Assembly (NCBI GenBank): GCA_004764695.1
Contig: SMSO01000007.1
Location: 894,001 to 958,000, forward strand
Direction of reading: 5' to 3'
DNA: 64,000 nt
DNA from: Schizochytrium sp. TIO01
Lineage: Eukaryota > Sar > Bigyra > Thraustochytrida > Thraustochytriidae
How positions within the stretch are numbered: position 1 is the stretch's first letter; each line of letters opens with the position of its first letter. Made by a program: the position numbers and the translations under genes. Positions 2,640 through 40,445 of this stretch are shown piece after piece. The notes beneath the pieces were generated by a model. It did no database searches. It was not told the DNA's origin and was given only the letters and a program-made list of their open reading frames with translations.

Positions 2640-5600
2640 TCAGGTATCGTGGAAGGTTTGCATTTCAATATCCTGCTGGAACGTCTGGTGTCGAGACTGG
2701 TTCCGCGTACGACGCACTTCAAGAAGCTCTTGCTTTTTGCGAACTAATCCAGGCAAAACAAAAAAGTCATAAACCCAACCGAATCCAAGACAGCCGAGAG
2801 TAAAGGCATACAGGGTACCAATCATGTAATCCCCTAGGTAGAACCGATGCAGACCAATGACACCACCAGGGAGCCATAAAATATAGGCATCAATCAATGA
2901 GTAGTTGTCATCATCAGATGGTGCATCGCCACGAACCAAGGAGTCATGGTAAAGATCTGGAAGACGCCAAGCATCAATGATCCAACCCATACACAGGCCT
3001 CCAAACGTACAAAGATAATAAAAGCCCCACTTTATTTGTCCCATGGCAAAGCGGTGAGCACCCCAGTAACCAAGAACGCCCCAAAGGATGTAGGTCTCAT
3101 GCAGTGAGCAACTCACAGTCTCACCCCTATTCATGCGATCAACGAGGGCGGGAAGTCTGAGTATATCAAAGAACCAACCTACACCAAGCAAACCCAAGGT
3201 GCAGGCATAAACGATACCCCACGTAGTACGACCCAAATAAAAGTGATGCGCGCCGAAGAGACCAAGGAAAAGGCAATACATATAGGCAACTTCAACGGAG
3301 TATGTCTCCAAACTAGGACGCAATTCTTCATCTTCAACAATAATGGGCTGCATAGGCTCGCTGGCACTTGCAAACCGGGCAGAAGTCCGAAGTTCTGTCT
3401 GATAGTCCATCCCAACAGAAGAAGGCTCAGTATGACGAACATTTTGGCGCGACCGATTAGATGCCTGAGATACTAACATTGGGTACCCAGAATCTGAGGT
3501 AGCTTCACGGTCAGATTCCAGCTCGGGGGTTTTGGACAGTACGCGTGGAGACGCCTGGGCATCACTTGACTCGTGCTCATCTCGAAGGCGACTCCGGGCT
3601 ATGGCACTAGTAGCTCCAGTAGCTCCCACAGCTGGCGCGCTTGCTGTGACCTCTGCAACACCTGTAGCATCCACAGCTTTATCAGATGTCAAGTTTTGAG
3701 CGCCGGCTGAAACAGGGGCAGATGATGCAAGTAGGGCATCCCGTGACTGTTGAGTTTCACTCTCTGGCTCTGGGTTGGAATCATGATCATAATCTTTCTC
3801 CTCCTCAGAGCTAGAGGAAAGCTTGTTGACATCGTTGTCTTTTCCGTTGGCATTTGCACTACCAGTAACACCTGGGTCAGAAGGTTCAGGCAAAATTCTG
3901 TTTTGCCCCTTCGAAGATGATCCGGTATGACCTGTACTAGTAGGATCTTCATGGGAGGGCTCTGAAAGCTTATTGGGGGTACCCGCGTGTTCATGAAGCT
4001 CTGGAATTGACTTCATAGGGGCAGCTCGTCCAAGACCAAAGTCTTGGCGTCGTTTCTTCGTACTTTGAGGAGCATCGTATATTTCGTCGGAATTAGCGTC
4101 AATAGAGGACTTCTGAGCAGGACGTTTCATAGCATCAGATGGCGAGCCTGTGGCGCTTCCAGATGCAACTGATTGCTTGCCAGCAGATGATGCATCAAGT
4201 TCGCGAGCGAGGGTCCGAGTACTTGCAATATGAAAAAAGTGGGAGACACAATTAGTGATGATGCGCATAGATCCGTCAGGAAGTTGCTCTGCACAAATAA
4301 CTTCAAAACAATATTTTGGGGCAAGGTCTGGTTTGTCCTTGGGTCTCCGCTTCTTTGACAATGTTACGCTAAGCTTCCAGCAAGTAGCCTTAAAGGTGAG
4401 AAGCATGCCGCCAGTTGGAATGGGCGAGGTACGGCCCCGGAGGCAATGCTTTACTAACGCTTGAAATTCATTGGCGGAAAGCACCATACCAGGCCGCAAG
4501 GTCGTGACCTCACCCTCTGATGTAGCAAGGTCAATCCTTGATAATGCTGTGAGGCGGCGAGGTTCAATCTCGAAGCCATTGAGTACAGCCTCTACAGAGC
4601 TACTACACGTTCCACCTCCGCTGATATTGTGACGTTGCCCATTGATCCGCATTGTATGATAGTCGCCAAATTCAGGGCACACAGGGAAACATTGCAAGTT
4701 TTTGCGATCATTGCGCCAATACTTGGCATGGAAGCTAGTGTTGAAAGTGATCTTAGCACTCGAATTACTTCCTTCCATAGGAGTAGGTTGATCAGGCATT
4801 CCTGGTGACTGATCAGACTCTTGAGACGAAGTTGTTGATGCAGCCGAACTTCGATTTGACACTGTACTTGTGCTTGCAGCACGAAGTGTTGCCTGCGGCA
4901 GTGGAGGAGGTTGGTTTAATGTTCCAGCATATTCCTGTCGCGGAGGGAAGACGGGGTCTGTAAACATACGGTGAATGTCTTGTAGATCCTCTTCTGGATC
5001 AAAGCCTCCATCTAAATGTGGATGCTTGATTGTAGGCTCGAGTTTGATATGGTTATCAAAAGGCTCTTCTGATGCAAAAAGTGCAGGTATTTGGTTTGAA
5101 GAATATGATGACTCTAATAGTGAAGCATGATTATGATCATACCCGTCACTGGTATATTGTTTGTGAGCCGAACCTCCATTATCTACTACACCCAGAGGAT
5201 CTGATGAATGCAGCGGAATATCGAAACCGTTGTTAACAGACGCCCTGCCCATGTCGAAGTCGTTGTGAGGGCCACTGCTGCTACTACTGCTACTGCTCCC
5301 CGGTAAGTTTGACTCGTGTGACCCATTTTGGAAAGTACCATGATGATCAAAATCTGCGTATTTCTGCTGTGAGTGCTGCGGTCGTGTGCCATAGGTGTTC
5401 GTCATCATTGCACCGTTTGAGTTATAAGGTGAAGGGTCGAAGCCTGAATGAGAGGGGGCGTGTTGTGAGTTTTCGTGAGATACCTGTGGACCAAACCAGT
5501 CGTTAATTTGTTGCCCGCTGGCAAATTCATCATCAAGTAGATCAATGATATCATTGAGCTCATCCTCAACCAGGTCATTCGGGGCAGACTTTGGAAAGCT

Positions 5601-5966
5601 ATGGGATGGGTGGTGGTTTGTAGATTGGTCCATGGGCAAGACGAAATCGCCGTATTCGAGTCCTACAGATGAAAGCTGAGAGGTCGCCAATGGATCGTGA
5701 TCAGGTCGATACGAGTTAGGGATTGATACGTCTCGGTTATATAGTGGATCGAGATCTGATCCGTATTGCTGCTGTTGAAGATACTGAAATTGCTGATGCT
5801 CGCTGTGTTGATGGTGTTGCTGTTCTTGGTGGTGGTCTTCAGTTCCGGATGCAGGAGAAGTTAAATAGTCACTCCCATCGCCAGATTCAGAGACTGTGTA
5901 AGGTGAGAACGGTGCGTCGAGGGGGGAGAAGTAGGCGTCAATTGATGAGTTTTCCGGTGGCAGCAT
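2640..5966 (-). CDS. Transcription-factor-like protein fused to three TM2 domains
   Basis: This single exon encodes 1108 residues, with a true ATG at 5966. Residues 1-400 are disordered and rich in Q, H, S, N and D, with a Ser run and a SUMO-consensus motif I-K-L-E near residue 307. Residues about 405-592 form a folded domain with a K-N-L-Q-C-F-P-V-C core near 422-430, a basic K-K-R-R patch near 540, and beta-strand-like sequence ending at about 592. A matching domain occurs in the protein at 36972-40445. Residues 600-885 are again disordered, with a second K-K-R-R motif. Residues about 886-1075 hold three consecutive TM2 domains. Each has two predicted transmembrane helices joined by a short turn, with G-x-x-G-x-H-R/H-F-Y/A-x-G signatures. 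TM2 proteins are normally small membrane proteins, so joining three of them to a long soluble regulatory-looking region is unusual. A membrane-held regulator released by proteolysis is a reasonable inference. No cleavage site is recognisable. The TM2 call is firm and the DNA-binding role is not. Confidence 0.9.
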   Translation of the reverse strand: MLPPENSSIDAYFSPLDAPFSPYTVSESGDGSDYLTSPASGTEDHHQEQQHHQHSEHQQFQYLQQQQYGSDLDPLYNRDVSIPNSYRPDHDPLATSQLSSVGLEYGDFVLPMDQSTNHHPSHSFPKSAPNDLVEDELNDIIDLLDDEFASGQQINDWFGPQVSHENSQHAPSHSGFDPSPYNSNGAMMTNTYGTRPQHSQQKYADFDHHGTFQNGSHESNLPGSSSSSSSSGPHNDFDMGRASVNNGFDIPLHSSDPLGVVDNGGSAHKQYTSDGYDHNHASLLESSYSSNQIPALFASEEPFDNHIKLEPTIKHPHLDGGFDPEEDLQDIHRMFTDPVFPPRQEYAGTLNQPPPLPQATLRAASTSTVSNRSSAASTTSSQESDQSPGMPDQPTPMEGSNSSAKITFNTSFHAKYWRNDRKNLQCFPVCPEFGDYHTMRINGQRHNISGGGTCSSSVEAVLNGFEIEPRRLTALSRIDLATSEGEVTTLRPGMVLSANEFQALVKHCLRGRTSPIPTGGMLLTFKATCWKLSVTLSKKRRPKDKPDLAPKYCFEVICAEQLPDGSMRIITNCVSHFFHIASTRTLARELDASSAGKQSVASGSATGSPSDAMKRPAQKSSIDANSDEIYDAPQSTKKRRQDFGLGRAAPMKSIPELHEHAGTPNKLSEPSHEDPTSTGHTGSSSKGQNRILPEPSDPGVTGSANANGKDNDVNKLSSSSEEEKDYDHDSNPEPESETQQSRDALLASSAPVSAGAQNLTSDKAVDATGVAEVTASAPAVGATGATSAIARSRLRDEHESSDAQASPRVLSKTPELESDREATSDSGYPMLVSQASNRSRQNVRHTEPSSVGMDYQTELRTSARFASASEPMQPIIVEDEELRPSLETYSVEVAYMYCLFLGLFGAHHFYLGRTTWGIVYACTLGLLGVGWFFDILRLPALVDRMNRGETVSCSLHETYILWGVLGYWGAHRFAMGQIKWGFYYLCTFGGLCMGWIIDAWRLPDLYHDSLVRGDAPSDDDNYSLIDAYILWLPGGVIGLHRFYLGDYMIGTLYAFTLGCLGFGWVYDFFVLPGLVRKKQELLEVRRTRNQSRHQTFQQDIEMQTFHDT

Positions 5967-6742
5967 ACTCTTTCACAGTGCTAGCCGCCCGTTCCGAAAT
6001 TATGTCAAGCCTAGATTTCACTTCCAAACAATAACGCCAGCAACGGGAAATTAAAACACAATAATATGAACAGCAAGAACCACCTGGTCTCTCCACAAGC
6101 TATGGAAACCTGCAATGGGCTTTTTCAGCTGCCTCCGGCAGCCCCTTCAGGCCCCGCCCCAGGACAGCCAAGTCGTGTTCAATAGCCTGCTTTGGTTTTG
6201 GCTTTCGCTGCAGTCACTTTGAACTTGGGAGGCTGGCTACTTGATACCACCTCAATTGGCACTCGAGTAAAACTCTGCAACCGCTTCGACGCAGCGGAGC
6301 TTTACGCAGCAGACCCCAGGTCACAATTTGTCTGTAGCAGCGGAACTCCTTCGCTTCGCCCTTTTTCTTCACCCCTTCGTTCCCCGCCACCTCTGCGCTT
6401 CCTCGAGGTCGCTTTCGTTCACGGAGTCCACTTCGGGCACCCTAATGAGAGAATAATTAGTCTGGTCACCGGATCGGATCTGTCTGCGTCAAAATCGGCC
6501 TCAGAGCGTTCTTGCGATCCTCCCCGAGGGAGCGTCTGTCGCTTCGCGGCCCTCCAGGTCTGCTCTCGTTTCGCCCACGAGGTCCTCTGGGCTTCTGCTA
6601 CGAATCCCGAGCCGGGGTCTGCCTGCACCCCAAGCAGCCAAGTCCGTGCGACACAACTCCAATTTTCTTTCTTTCGTCCTTTCTCACAGTAGTACGTCGT
6701 ACGTATCTCTCTTAGATCATGTGCTACTAAAAGGAAGTGTCT

Positions 6743-6834
6743 ACATACATACATACATACATACATTCATACATTCATACATTCATACATACATACATTC
6801 ATACATTCATACATTCATACATTCATACATCCAT
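6743..6834. repeat. ACATACATTC-type microsatellite
   Basis: Tandem CATA units grade into CATACATT units for about 90 bases. The same CATA unit makes the long array at 30378-30630. Confidence 0.95.
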
Positions 6835-7154
6835 AGATAGTACATCAATCGTGAGCGAGTGCCATACTATGACTATCTACTACTCACTAGCATAGTCTCT
6901 CTCTCTTTCTTCCTCTCTGTTTTCAGTTCCAATTTGGTATTTTTTCTTTTAAAGTTACTGGGTTATTTATTACTCTACTCACTCGAGTCTGCCGCTGGCT
7001 TCTGAGCCTGCGGCCTTCCTTTTCCTTCCGCCTGAGCCTGCGAGCGCCTTCGGGCTCCAGACCACCTCCCGCGCCACCCTCGAGCGGCCTCCGAGTCCCG
7101 CCTCGAGCCCTGCTTCGACTTGCAATTGGTTTGGATTCAATCCTAATTATTCGT

Positions 7155-7440
7155 CTAATTGTAATTGTAATTGTAATTCTAATTCTAATTCTAATTCTAA
7201 TTCTAATTCTAATTCTAATTCTAATTCTAATTCTAATTCTAATTCTAATTCTAATTCTAATTCTAATTCTAATTCTAATTCTAATTCTAATTCTAATTCT
7301 AATTCTAATTCTAATTCTAATTCTAATTCTAATTCTAATTCTAATTCTAATTCTAATTCTAATTCTAATTCTAATTCTAACTCTAATTCTAATTCTAATT
7401 CTAATTCTAATTCCAACTCAGACTCAAACTCAAATTCAAA
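7155..7440. repeat. CTAATT hexamer array
   Basis: The array starts as GTAATT units, becomes a nearly perfect run of about 40 CTAATT units, and decays from 7413 into ACTCAA/ATTCAA units. Because the unit is six bases, frames stay open on both strands (Ile-Leu or Glu-Leu repeats). I treat those frames as artefacts. Confidence 0.95.
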
Positions 7441-7442
7441 TA

Positions 7443-8570
7443 CTAAATGAGCTTCCACTGTGCTGGACTCGAGTTGATGAACCTCTGTTGATAGCCCATC
7501 TCGTCACTCAAAGAGTCAAGCTCGTATGGGTACCAATTACTGATACTTATTTGAGGTAATAAGACTATGGAATTAGTATCAGGGGACTCCTCCAAGTAAT
7601 TTAGTGCAAAGCTTTGACACGATAAAGAAGCATCTTTAAGACTCTCTTCAGAATTGGACCATCCATAAAGACGTGGATCCTATGCACCCGTAGCAATACC
7701 ATATCTCATGTGAAAAATTCGAGTCGTAGCGAGATCGAAAGGAATCTGCTGCAAGGTCATGTTGTATAGGCAGTGCAAGCGATTCTTCGCCAGCGCAAAC
7801 AAAACCACTCCAAATTGAGCATTTGATACAACAAATGTGTTATTAGCGTAAATAACTCGCCTTAAATTGGGATATAATGTAGTTATATTTGTACCCACTT
7901 AGACTGTGATAGCTTGCCCATCAGTAACAATTATACATTCCCTTGTGATTTCTTCATCGCTACCGACATTAATCAATGTGCAAGTCTGGATATCAGAAGA
8001 AATGTTCACGCTCACGCCAAGGGGTTCGTAGCAAAGACCAAACGTGCCATTACTGTCCAATTGAATGACAATATTACCGGATGCGAGATAAGGGTCTTTG
8101 CCACTTGTATAACTAGAGCCTGGAATCGCCTCTATCACTGGCCATGCATGCGGTTGGCGCAGAAGTTGGCCCTAATGAAGTAGGAGCCCCAGCAAAGTGG
8201 GATATGGTGTCAGGCTTAGAGTTTATGCATTTGTAGATCGAGGATTGTTGCTCTCTGCCGTTGGGCTAGAAGTAACCACCTCGATGATATTTGCATAGTC
8301 ATCAAAACTACTTGAGGTGGAACTCAACGCTGTTGATGAAGAGCTAGACAATGAATCGCATGCAATTTTTTCACTTGTAAACTTCATATCTACTGATGTA
8401 CTCTGGTTGAGTGGAATACTTACTCCCGTCTCCTGAACAGAAATGTAAATCGCGACTAATACAAGACTAACCATCAGGAGCGGATTGATTAGAACAAACC
8501 ATAATCGGAGAGCACTTATGAGAAAATAACTAGATGTGGAATTACTCTTTTTATGCATGTTTACAGACAT
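7443..8570 (-). pseudogene. Broken N-glycosylated membrane/secreted protein gene
   Basis: From an ATG at 8570 the frame encodes a basic start, then one long hydrophobic segment (about residues 18-42, a signal anchor), then a Ser/Thr-rich stalk. A TAA stops it at 8223. The same frame then recovers and continues with several N-x-S/T sites and scattered Cys. It is interrupted by a stop near 8170, a TAA at 7899-7901 and a TAG at 7680-7682, and ends at a TAG at 7443. Between 8140 and 8222 a Pro/Thr-rich stretch reads better in a neighbouring frame, which suggests an indel. Coding-like sequence on both sides of each stop argues for a decayed gene. Unrecognised short introns are the alternative. The family is not identified. 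The product would have been an extracellular or type II membrane protein. Confidence 0.5.
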
Positions 8571-36174: not shown

Positions 36175-36971
36175 GAGAAAACTTTGAACTTTGAATAGAA
36201 AGGGACACTGACATCTTCTTTGGCTTTGAATCAGAAGGTAGGTAGGTACCTATTAATTTTCATTGGGTTTTCTTTAGAAAGAAATGCACTGTGCAAAGAA
36301 ACAGCGCCGGCTTTGGCAAAAGAAAGACTCGAAAGCGGAGGAGAAGAGAAGGTGTCGTTCTGTTTAGAAGGAAGAAATACATTCGGGCGCGCAGCAGGAG
36401 GTAGGTAGGGACTACTACGTACTCTCCAAAATTACACGGTCGCGGGATCGTCCAGGTGTTGCCAACTTGAGGTTGAAGAGAGAGAATCGGCAGTTAAGAG
36501 CACCCCCCTCCTCTGCCGTGCTCTTGTTGACCAAAGAAGAGAACCTTGCTTTATTTTTGTTTTCGAATTCCTTTTGGGACCCGATTTTCTCTTTGAAGTT
36601 CTTCTTAGCAGTGTCTTCGCACTTTGATTCTTTTTATTTTTATTCTTTCTTTCTTCAAGTTTAAGTTGCGTTGAAAGAAAGAATGAAAAGTGAAAATTTC
36701 ATTTAAACAAAAGATACTTGAGGAAGGCGTTCCGTCTGGATCGAAAAGGTAGTAGTATTATTTTTAGTAGTAAGAGTAGTAGTATTATTATTAGTAGCAG
36801 CAGTACCTGGCGACAGGCGATCCTCAAAACCGCATCCTCCAACACAAAGAGGGTAGAGGAAAGCAGACCGTAGAAGGTACTTTAATAAAAACAAAACAAA
36901 ACAAGTAAAGCCAAAGAGGAAAAGTAACAAAGAGCCTCGAGAAGGTCGGCAAACTCCAAACCTGTGTCAAG

Positions 36972-39900
36972 ATGTCCGAGGCATTGCTCTCGGAAGTCTG
37001 GGATGACAGCGAGGTGGCCGCGGCGGCGGGCCTCGACGAGGAGGCAACCCAGAAGCTCGCAATGATGACTGAAGACGATGTGGCACCTGACCAGGAGGAC
37101 GATGAAGTTATAATCGTGGAGCACAGACCTGCCTCTTCCTGTGAACAACAATCAAAACAGCAAGAACTTGTATTTCCACAAGGAGGAGCGGAACAAAATC
37201 AAAATAGCTTTGAGGATGCCCTCGACAGCTCACCTCAAGACCAGAGGCAGCATAGAACACAGAGAGTAAATCGAAATCACTCAACGGATGCTGCAATCGT
37301 GCCTGGGAAACTTACACGGCGCGATGAATTGTCTTGTGCACAAAATGTTGAGCCTAACTCGTACCTGCTTACGGGGGTGCAAGACAATAATGCAAATCAA
37401 GGTGAAAACCACTTGGTTAATGACAGCGAACCTAGCTTGAAGAGCAGCAGCAGCAACAGCAGTAGAAATGGTTCCGGCAAGATATCAAAAAGAGCTCAAT
37501 TGACGGAAGCAGCCCAAGATAGCGGAAACGCTGTGAGTGGAACTGCAAGAAACGCTGCAAATGGGTTTGACAAAGTCATGCTTAGTCTGCTCAGTATTTC
37601 GGACACGGATGTGGTGCTGACGGAATTCTTCGAAGAGTTTGAGGGCCTTGAACCACTCCAAGCCTGTGGTGAAGAACACGTGAATTGGGAAGATTCGTGC
37701 TGTGATACAGGCAGTGAACACTCGAATCACAACAACAATAGCAGCAATGGCCAGCACCACTGTATTCATCAGCTTAATCAACATAATGAAGCTAGCTTAC
37801 ATAAGCAACTTGCTACGACAGGCAGTAGCAACGGTCGCAACAGCAGCAGTTGTAGTAACAGTCCACGGCAGAGCCTTCACAGCCACAAACACAGACAAAC
37901 TTCAAGAAATCGAGGACATATAAGCCAGACAGTGCAAGATTGCTCATCCAATCAACTCTTGGATAGCGGGACCTTTGACGTGGAGCCTTCTAGCAAGATG
38001 CCATCGTCGGATCCGGCACGAATGCCACCTTCTCCTCCCAAAGCTCCAGCATTGGACGATGATATTTTCGGCATGTATGGCGAAGAAGATTATGATCACA
38101 AGAACCAAGAGCATGATCAAGCGCCCGTCTACATCAAGTCCGAGCCCTTGGATATCCAAGAAACCTCGCGGATCACTACCTTACCACCAAACCCGCCATC
38201 TGTGTTGAAATACGAATCAGAAGCTTTTCAGACGGATTTTGGCGATTTTGATGACTCAGATTCAAGTATTTTTGGGTCTTCTACAGACGAGCCCACAGCC
38301 TCGCATTCTTCGCGCTCCCTTTCGCCGCCCTTTGCACCTGGGGACTTTTCTATCAACCACTCGGACGCCCACGAGAATGCCATGGGAATGGAAAATGGCA
38401 CTCTCTATGGTTCCTTTGATGAACATCTCTTTGTTGACCGCTATCAACGAAATAACAAATGCTCAGGACTCAAAAATCTGCGTTGTTTCCCTAACTGTGG
38501 TCCAACTCACCAGCCACGAAAGTTTTGTGGACAAGGCATCACCTTCCATGCTGTGTACAAACCCGAATTCCAGAACGACGAGTACGCCAGCAAACCTAAC
38601 TTCATTGCTTACGGACGCTTCGATACTGCTTCAGGCCGCTTCAAAGATGTAGAAATTGGCACTGAGATCCCACTCGACACTATTCGCACCAGTGAACGCA
38701 AACGAGGACGCCCTCTTGCCCCATGGTACCCCAGCTACCAAGACTCAGCAAAGTCTGGTGACGCGTCTTATCTTATCGACTTCAAGTTCAACAGCAAGGA
38801 ACATCAGGGCTGGCACTATGACTGGGTCGCTACCAAATATACATGCGATACTCTCCATGTCTTCAATGTGTATATTTTTACTATTGACGAGGACAAAAAC
38901 ACCCTCCAGTGTGTTGGCAAGTTCTCAAGTCCTGCCTTTCAGCTATACTGCCGCCGCCGCCAGCGGTTCCGTCGGATGGCTCCAGTCACAAAGTCCTCAC
39001 CTGCCACATTATTGTACCATATCGCTGTGCTTTTACAAAAGGCACAGGACCCGGCAGTTGAGGATTCTGATGTTGAGTCACCAAGTTCACCTCAGAGCAT
39101 CGACGAGGCATCCATAAGCTCGAAGACTCAGCAGCTTAGCCCCCAAGAAAAGTACCGTCGTCTCCAACGCATTCTGCGTCGCCTTGCCCACCATGTTGTA
39201 TCAGAAAGCGCCTTCACAGACCACATCACAAATGTATGCCAAGATATTGCGTATCGCCGTGACCGCGGTGAAAGCATTGATCTTGGCTTCAATCGTTTCC
39301 TTGAAGCGATTCGGCAATATTTGCATGATTACCTTCAGGAAAATGGCTCAACATTGACGGAGATTGAAGAGCTCTACACTGCAGCCGCCGATATCATCAA
39401 GAGCAGCCAGAATAATGTGCAAACATCAGACGTTGGAGTCTTTGGGCTTGTTCACCCTTCAGCATCCATTTCCAGTGCTGCTCCTCCTGCTCCTGAGGTA
39501 GCGGCCTCGATGTCTACACAACCTTCTGTAGTTAGAGATGATGATGCCGGAGAAAGATCGTTCGATCAACGAAAATATGGTACGGCTCCTCTAAAGGACG
39601 CAAAGAATCCAGAACGTCGTGTGCGCCAAGTATTTCTCAACCTCATCGACGCCTTCAGTACTCAGGCAAATCGCATCAAACGTCCGCGTCGTGTAGAGCC
39701 TCACGTTCTCGAAGGCCTTGAAGGCCTCTCAAAACGCCTTCGTATTGAATTGTACTCTCCCTCGGACTCTGCCACTGTACTCGGGTCCCCGCGCGAGACC
39801 TCGATTGAATGCGCTGTACGTCTCCCCAAAGCAGACCTTGACAAGTACTATCAATATGATCCTTCCCAGCCTTGGATCGGCTTTGATCCAAACGGAAAGC

Positions 39901-40445
39901 CCGATGTTTCGGGTATCTGGGCCCCAGAGGCCTACAGTGCTCTTCGTCTTCAGCAATTGCGCGTGGGCACTATGAAGATGCCCTGGATGCGTAGTAAAAT
40001 GCTCAGTTCGATGGAACGCGAGCTAAGTCTTCAGCACACCCCAACGACACTGTCGATTCAATTGCGGCGGAAGCTTCTTTCCGATGGATTTATCGACTAT
40101 GTCTTTGATGGAAAAGAGCATCCTTTCGACTTAAAAGATCCACTCATGTGTGTCGCAACACCTATGGCACTTACCAAGCAGGCTTTTACGGTGGGTAATG
40201 CAGTGGTAATTCGCCATCGCTATTCGGAAGTGTCACGCTACACACGTCTTTGGTGGAGATCGCCCACCAACAACGCACTTTTGGGACGTGGAATCCTTGA
40301 ATTCCGCGCCTCTATGGAGTCGCCATGGTCGATTCACTCCATGTTGGTTGCAGATGCACATGCCGTGACTTCCCCCGACCCTCAATTCATCAACTCTCAT
40401 GAACTTGTCGATCTTCCTCCCTCACCTGCTCTGTTGCAGCTGTGA
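36972..40445 (+). CDS. Transcription-factor-like protein, soluble relative of the TM2 fusion
   Basis: A single exon encodes 1157 residues from a true ATG. Residues 1-480 are disordered: an acidic start, runs of S, N, Q and H, an acidic D-D-D-I-F-G patch, and a SUMO-consensus I-K-S-E-P near 388. Residues about 490-665 form a folded domain with K-N-L-R-C-F-P-N-C near 501-509, a G-Q-G after it, and a strand-rich end finishing in C-R-R-R-Q-R-F-R-R. Order and motifs match residues 405-592 of the protein at 2640-5966. A helical region (about 725-815) and a further strand-rich C-terminal segment (about 960-1157) follow. There are no membrane segments. A nuclear DNA-binding regulator is the natural inference, from the activation-like N-terminus, the basic domain end and the SUMO site. 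I cannot name the DNA-binding family. A distant p53/NDT80-like immunoglobulin fold is possible. Confidence 0.88.
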   Translation: MSEALLSEVWDDSEVAAAAGLDEEATQKLAMMTEDDVAPDQEDDEVIIVEHRPASSCEQQSKQQELVFPQGGAEQNQNSFEDALDSSPQDQRQHRTQRVNRNHSTDAAIVPGKLTRRDELSCAQNVEPNSYLLTGVQDNNANQGENHLVNDSEPSLKSSSSNSSRNGSGKISKRAQLTEAAQDSGNAVSGTARNAANGFDKVMLSLLSISDTDVVLTEFFEEFEGLEPLQACGEEHVNWEDSCCDTGSEHSNHNNNSSNGQHHCIHQLNQHNEASLHKQLATTGSSNGRNSSSCSNSPRQSLHSHKHRQTSRNRGHISQTVQDCSSNQLLDSGTFDVEPSSKMPSSDPARMPPSPPKAPALDDDIFGMYGEEDYDHKNQEHDQAPVYIKSEPLDIQETSRITTLPPNPPSVLKYESEAFQTDFGDFDDSDSSIFGSSTDEPTASHSSRSLSPPFAPGDFSINHSDAHENAMGMENGTLYGSFDEHLFVDRYQRNNKCSGLKNLRCFPNCGPTHQPRKFCGQGITFHAVYKPEFQNDEYASKPNFIAYGRFDTASGRFKDVEIGTEIPLDTIRTSERKRGRPLAPWYPSYQDSAKSGDASYLIDFKFNSKEHQGWHYDWVATKYTCDTLHVFNVYIFTIDEDKNTLQCVGKFSSPAFQLYCRRRQRFRRMAPVTKSSPATLLYHIAVLLQKAQDPAVEDSDVESPSSPQSIDEASISSKTQQLSPQEKYRRLQRILRRLAHHVVSESAFTDHITNVCQDIAYRRDRGESIDLGFNRFLEAIRQYLHDYLQENGSTLTEIEELYTAAADIIKSSQNNVQTSDVGVFGLVHPSASISSAAPPAPEVAASMSTQPSVVRDDDAGERSFDQRKYGTAPLKDAKNPERRVRQVFLNLIDAFSTQANRIKRPRRVEPHVLEGLEGLSKRLRIELYSPSDSATVLGSPRETSIECAVRLPKADLDKYYQYDPSQPWIGFDPNGKPDVSGIWAPEAYSALRLQQLRVGTMKMPWMRSKMLSSMERELSLQHTPTTLSIQLRRKLLSDGFIDYVFDGKEHPFDLKDPLMCVATPMALTKQAFTVGNAVVIRHRYSEVSRYTRLWWRSPTNNALLGRGILEFRASMESPWSIHSMLVADAHAVTSPDPQFINSHELVDLPPSPALLQL

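Follow-up and report, generated by a model that had tools for sequence, protein, structure and literature searches.

The 64,000-nucleotide stretch of DNA that we analysed (hereafter the window; C6:894001-958000 of genome G000, which was searched in full: 64.06 Mb, 37 contigs) encodes on its minus strand a protein, P0001, that begins with a low-complexity head and a Cys-containing domain, which a linker joins to three C-terminal TM2 domains. Judging from its sequence, P0001 is tentatively best explained, with a likelihood that we place somewhat below even, as a protein that belongs to an expanded transcription-factor-like family and is anchored in a membrane, from which it could release a putative nuclear fragment. 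The original prediction, a regulated-release transcription factor of a new architecture, gains from the triple TM2 block, the single reading frame and the membership of this family, but loses the likeness to the NDT80-type domain of MYRF that had been part of it. The features are collected in Table 1.

Table 1. Features of P0001 and of two further family members; positions are those of the window unless a contig is given.
Feature	Position	Strand	Basis or remark
Whole open frame P0001	2640..5966	(-)	1108 aa + stop; zero internal stops
Low-complexity acidic Q/H/S-rich head, residues 1-393	4788..5966	(-)	composition
IKLEP, residues 307-311, SUMO-consensus-like	5034..5048	(-)	motif scan
Family domain (putatively DNA-binding), divergent copy, residues 402-606	4149..4763	(-)	profile match 27.2 bits
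Half alignable to the family, residues 402-512	4431..4763	(-)	alignment and profile
KKRR, residues 538-541	4344..4355	(-)	sequence
KKRR, residues 637-640, between domain and membrane block	4047..4058	(-)	sequence
Low-complexity linker, residues 607-885, open 279 codons	3312..4148	(-)	composition, open-run chance
TM2 domain 1	3162..3302	(-)	PF05154, 59.9 bits
TM2 domain 2	2967..3095	(-)	PF05154, 44.8 bits
TM2 domain 3	2760..2903	(-)	PF05154, 50.8 bits
Second family member, 1157 aa	36972..40445	(+)	domain at 38430-38969
L048	G000:C30:4608500-4616000, frame 3372-6929		two likely transmembrane stretches, hydropathy

That P0001 is one 1108-residue frame, as originally proposed, is borne out: the frame is unbroken, 1108 open codons would arise by chance with a probability of about 1e-23 given the ORF's own base composition, and the plus-strand frame across the same positions contains many stops. 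At full length the protein occurs once in the genome. Codon position 1 has the highest G+C in all full 100-codon blocks except 401-500, where positions 1 and 3 tie, a pattern read here without a control. Elsewhere in the window, positions 7131-7559 hold a long simple repeat with L-I repeat frames on the plus strand and E-L repeat frames on the minus strand.

The three predicted C-terminal TM2 domains were recovered by profile search, each above the PF05154 cut-off of 27.9 bits, and TM2 was the sole Pfam family matched in P0001 at E up to 1. The genome search found three other TM2 loci, two with a single domain and one with three. The latter, a separate triple-TM2 protein on contig C34 (L014:4120-5175), has the same three TM2 domains in a block collinear with that of P0001 and ~40% identical to it, but has a short head; Pfam finds TM2 alone in it, and the searches with the family domain listed no match there. 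Repeat 1 of P0001 is closest to repeat 1 of the separate protein (47%), which is equally near to its own repeat 2; repeat 3 is closest to repeat 3 (54%), and repeat 2 has no clear partner. Given this collinearity, the TM2 block probably predates the divergence of the two genes; it either came to the family domain in one piece or was retained by it. A short frame, L015:3452-3919, opens with a TM2 match and continues as Rpb1 domain 5 of RNA polymerase (matched at E 4.8e-12); L016 has a near-identical TM2 start with another continuation.

When the residues of the Cys-containing domain were used as a genome query, one weak outside match was found, on contig C13 (E 0.0235). With that match as the query, 27 genome matches were listed including itself, 24 of them at E <0.001, and P0001 was recovered at E 0.0076. 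These matches correspond to 21 frames, from which we omitted L054 (85 residues long, its match both weak and short). The family has at least 20 frames in the genome, counted as one domain-bearing frame each: two in the window, L013, and 17 of the 18 regions of a follow-up set. Searches started from divergent members added no new places among the best-scoring candidates in the genome. Membership of P0001 follows from its profile score: 27.2 bits against a profile of 18 other members, where 400 shuffled sequences (200 each from the whole protein and from the domain) reached 6.6 bits at most.

An alignment of 19 members, P0001 included and L047 omitted for its long insert, has Y, R, K, C, P, C, H and C as invariant columns in all 19 rows, and the C-C-H-C set could bind zinc. 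In 13 of the 19 rows at least three consecutive arginines come after the domain; P0001, L040, L048, L051, L052 and L053 lack such a run. A Pfam scan of the 19 domains yielded nothing convincing (best E 0.0099, to DUF899, with 15.9 bits against a cut-off of 27), and a search of PDB sequences with the family profile gave no match at E up to 10. Relatives were also sought among viral and prokaryote contigs with an eight-row family alignment from which P0001 was excluded (A2); none of the 94 pattern matches in viral_contigs or the 104 in genome_contigs was confirmed. Most members are long proteins with low-complexity regions. These regions, together with the arginine runs, an excess of psi-K-x-E motifs (below) and the expansion in one genome, suggest that the family consists of putative transcription factors. 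The Cys-containing middle domain of the original prediction belongs to this expanded family, whose proteins are long, of low complexity and nuclear in appearance.

Some members lie close together: the two in the window are ~31 kb apart, and three more fall inside 25 kb on C36, with matches at 1335760, 1341441 and 1359584. Six members (L039, the window frame starting at 36909, L040, L038, L037 and L013) have a second, C-terminal domain in common, spanning residues ~1006-1137 of the L039 frame and ~999-1132 of the window frame 36909-40442. By eye it resembles a lipid-binding beta-barrel. Full-length Pfam scans of four of its carriers (the window member, L037, L039 and L013) gave no match for it, and a search for it in P0001 and L048 gave none either.

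The P0001 copy of the family domain is divergent. Its alignment to the family is limited to the first half, and in the poorly alignable second half the W-x-Y ... H motif present in 18 of the 19 rows is absent: the 18 other rows keep W, Y and H at the three positions and P0001 alone differs. Since this half aligns poorly, a tryptophan lying a few residues off in P0001 may be the family's W. In the family tree, in which nine of 17 inner branches are open, the P0001 branch is the longest (7.41, against a median of 1.73). Taken together, the longest branch, the missing W, Y and H and the missing arginine run suggest that the P0001 domain may not bind DNA.

The stretch thought to recall the end of the NDT80-type domain of MYRF sits in the half in which P0001 departs from its own family. 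K-P-D-L-A-P-K-Y is present. The proposed resemblance did not hold up, and we reject homology to NDT80/MYRF at the sequence level: no Pfam NDT80 match was listed for P0001 or the family domains (HMMER filters drop most matches above E 0.1), hhalign of the MYRF DNA-binding domain against the family alignment gave a probability of 2.7% across 20 columns that lie elsewhere, and whole-protein BLASTP for MYRF likeness gave a best E of 1.5. A whole-genome search with PF05224 was empty; its control matched in none of 14 genomes, and the result hence carries little weight. A self-cleaving domain of the tail-spike type was not found in P0001 by Pfam at E up to 1. Two AlphaFold models, built from two-row alignments of window sequences whose second halves were poorly aligned by MAFFT, had pLDDT values of 32.5 and 30.1 and were unusable.

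Residue composition confirms the low-complexity head: 71% of its residues are G, Q, S, P, E, K, D, N, H or T, and 56 D+E stand against 13 K+R. The claim of a SUMO motif in the head holds in part. IKLEP, which we take to be SUMO-consensus-like, is present, but the single psi-K-x-E motif of P0001 compares with 0.38 expected and is not significant for P0001 alone. Summed across the 20 family frames, 25 psi-K-x-E motifs compare with ~8.7 from shuffles; [IV]-K-x-E-P occurs in 5 of the 20, among them P0001, L048 and the other window member. IKSEP is present in two family members other than P0001. The basic K-K-R-R patches are there as claimed, and the one nearer the membrane block looks nuclear-localisation-like, a role that the sequence suggests.

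We judged membrane segments by 19-residue mean hydropathy alone, with a threshold of 1.6. Stretches above it occur in 5 of the 20 family frames, the maximum of P0001 (1.84) lying inside the TM2 block, and there are none in the other window member. L048 reaches 2.36 at frame residues 961-979, with a weaker second stretch (1.11) near its C-terminus; Pfam listed nothing for it at E up to 0.1, which means that its anchor cannot be recognised as TM2. In L047 (1.61) and L053 (1.68) the stretch lies ahead of the frame's first methionine, and in L043 (1.67 at 701) it lies in the C-terminal part; these three were excluded. This leaves P0001 and L048 as likely membrane members, a provisional count since several frames may lack exons. 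P0001 and L048 form a single clade in 4% of 200 bootstrap trees; despite this figure, the two may have a common origin as membrane members.

The orientation of P0001 in the membrane is less simple. Net charges are +3 in the TM2 hairpin loops, -11 in the segments that precede and separate the TM2 domains and +2 in the tail; those of the separate triple-TM2 protein lean the same way (+5, -2 and +1, respectively). Under the positive-inside rule, such a pattern does not speak for a head in the cytosol. Animal TM2D proteins are described as having an intracellular hairpin loop and an extracellular N-terminus (PMC8714088), and by this analogy the head of P0001 would sit outside. What counts against an outside head is its size: moving 885 residues across a membrane would be difficult if they lack a signal peptide, and none is evident by eye.

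If P0001 works as we propose, it would sit in an internal membrane with its head and family domain facing the cytosol. A signal would trigger proteolysis in the linker, and the freed N-terminal fragment, retaining the KKRR patches, would enter the nucleus; the TM2 block would serve as the anchor and perhaps as the sensor. In favour of this proposal are the family membership of P0001, the excess of psi-K-x-E motifs in the family, the likely transmembrane stretches of a second member (L048), the open linker and the collinear TM2 block of the separate protein. Against it count the lack of a known domain in the 19 scanned copies, the divergence of the P0001 copy and the loop charges. The missing arginine run lowered our estimate of this proposal and raised that of its main rival, in which P0001 is a permanently membrane-bound adaptor or sensor that has lost DNA binding and, for example, holds partner proteins without any release. 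We regard this rival as unlikely, though still worth serious weight. It would account for the longest branch in the family tree, for a second half of the domain that cannot be aligned and lacks the W-x-Y...H motif along with the arginine run, and for the failure of Pfam to find a self-cleaving domain. It would leave unexplained why the first half of the domain keeps the family cysteines and histidine and why the KKRR patches and IKLEP persist, the latter resembling the motifs of members that have no membrane segment.

The net basic charge of the domain (27 K+R, 18 D+E), its possible DNA binding and the long linker to a multi-pass block would also suit a protein that stays in the inner nuclear membrane, binds DNA and fixes loci there, an arrangement that would spare the need for a protease; with conserved domain residues lost in P0001, we hold it to be very unlikely. 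Least probable, in our judgement, is that two genes have been read as one and that the TM2 part is a transcript or exon of its own. A start at M872, just ahead of the block, would yield a product closely resembling the separate triple-TM2 protein that exists in the genome. Against this, there is no stop anywhere in the frame, the 279-codon linker would be open by chance with a probability of about 1e-5.8 (at the ORF's own base composition), and codon position 1 is the richest in G+C across the linker, at 0.58-0.64 (figures again without a control).

The proposal of a membrane-anchored, releasable factor can be extended into a broader picture, which we consider quite unlikely as a whole: organisms of the thraustochytrid type may have a large transcription-factor family of their own, built on a domain outside Pfam, with two members under membrane control through different anchors, the triple-TM2 member sensing the state of the membrane, such as its lipid composition, in a lineage whose very unsaturated fats come from a PUFA synthase. 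The genome itself does show signs of such an enzyme. A frame on contig C4, taken with neighbouring matches, scores 1157.4 bits against the PfaA PUFA-synthase model (cut-off 1010.1), the matches hitting one part of the model repeatedly; the same search gave matches in 11 of 14 control genomes, none of which exceeded the cut-off. Taken with the size of the genome, this result indicates that the source is probably a marine protist, a thraustochytrid or another labyrinthulomycete.

If our preferred reading of P0001 as a releasable membrane-anchored factor is true, a multi-pass TM2 anchor is added to the known ways of tethering a transcription factor at the membrane, an expanded putative regulator family undescribed in Pfam comes to light, and the TM2 domain gains a further role that can be assayed. 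The function of TM2 was called unknown in 2013 (PMC3581485), and animal TM2D genes were linked to Notch signalling in 2021 (PMC8714088). A TM2-anchored transcription-factor architecture was not found in the titles and abstract openings of literature on TM2 with transcription factors or fusions; one bZIP paper contains 'TM2 domain' once (PMC6213907).

Several known systems share parts of this arrangement. Animal TM2D1-3 and bacterial TM2 proteins have the TM2 domain in common with P0001, which differs from them in carrying three such domains in tandem after a head of 885 residues and, possibly, in the opposite orientation. Among TM2-SHOCT proteins, two with a helix-hairpin-helix motif are named (PMC3581485); like P0001 as proposed, these unite TM2 and a DNA-binding motif in one protein. 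Their TM2 domain, however, is single and N-terminal, and their DNA-binding motif is another one, unmatched in P0001 by Pfam. DNAJC22/Wurst combines tandem TM2-like units with a J domain, and resembles P0001 in having several such units in a row; no J domain match was found in P0001 by Pfam. The yeast regulator Mga2 carries IPT/TIG and ankyrin domains, neither of which Pfam matches in P0001, and P0001 further differs from Mga2/Spt23 in its multi-pass anchor. As a transcriptional regulator described to sense how lipids are packed in a membrane (PMC7005026), Mga2 is a possible working parallel for P0001; lipid sensing by P0001 itself would be speculation by analogy. From MYRF/MrfA, P0001 is set apart by three TM2 domains in place of a predicted transmembrane domain, with neither an NDT80 match nor a tail-spike-type self-cleaving domain found in it. 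The proposed layout is the same: an N-terminal head, a central DNA-binding domain and a C-terminal membrane anchor, as described for MYRF and for MrfA (PMC3828593).
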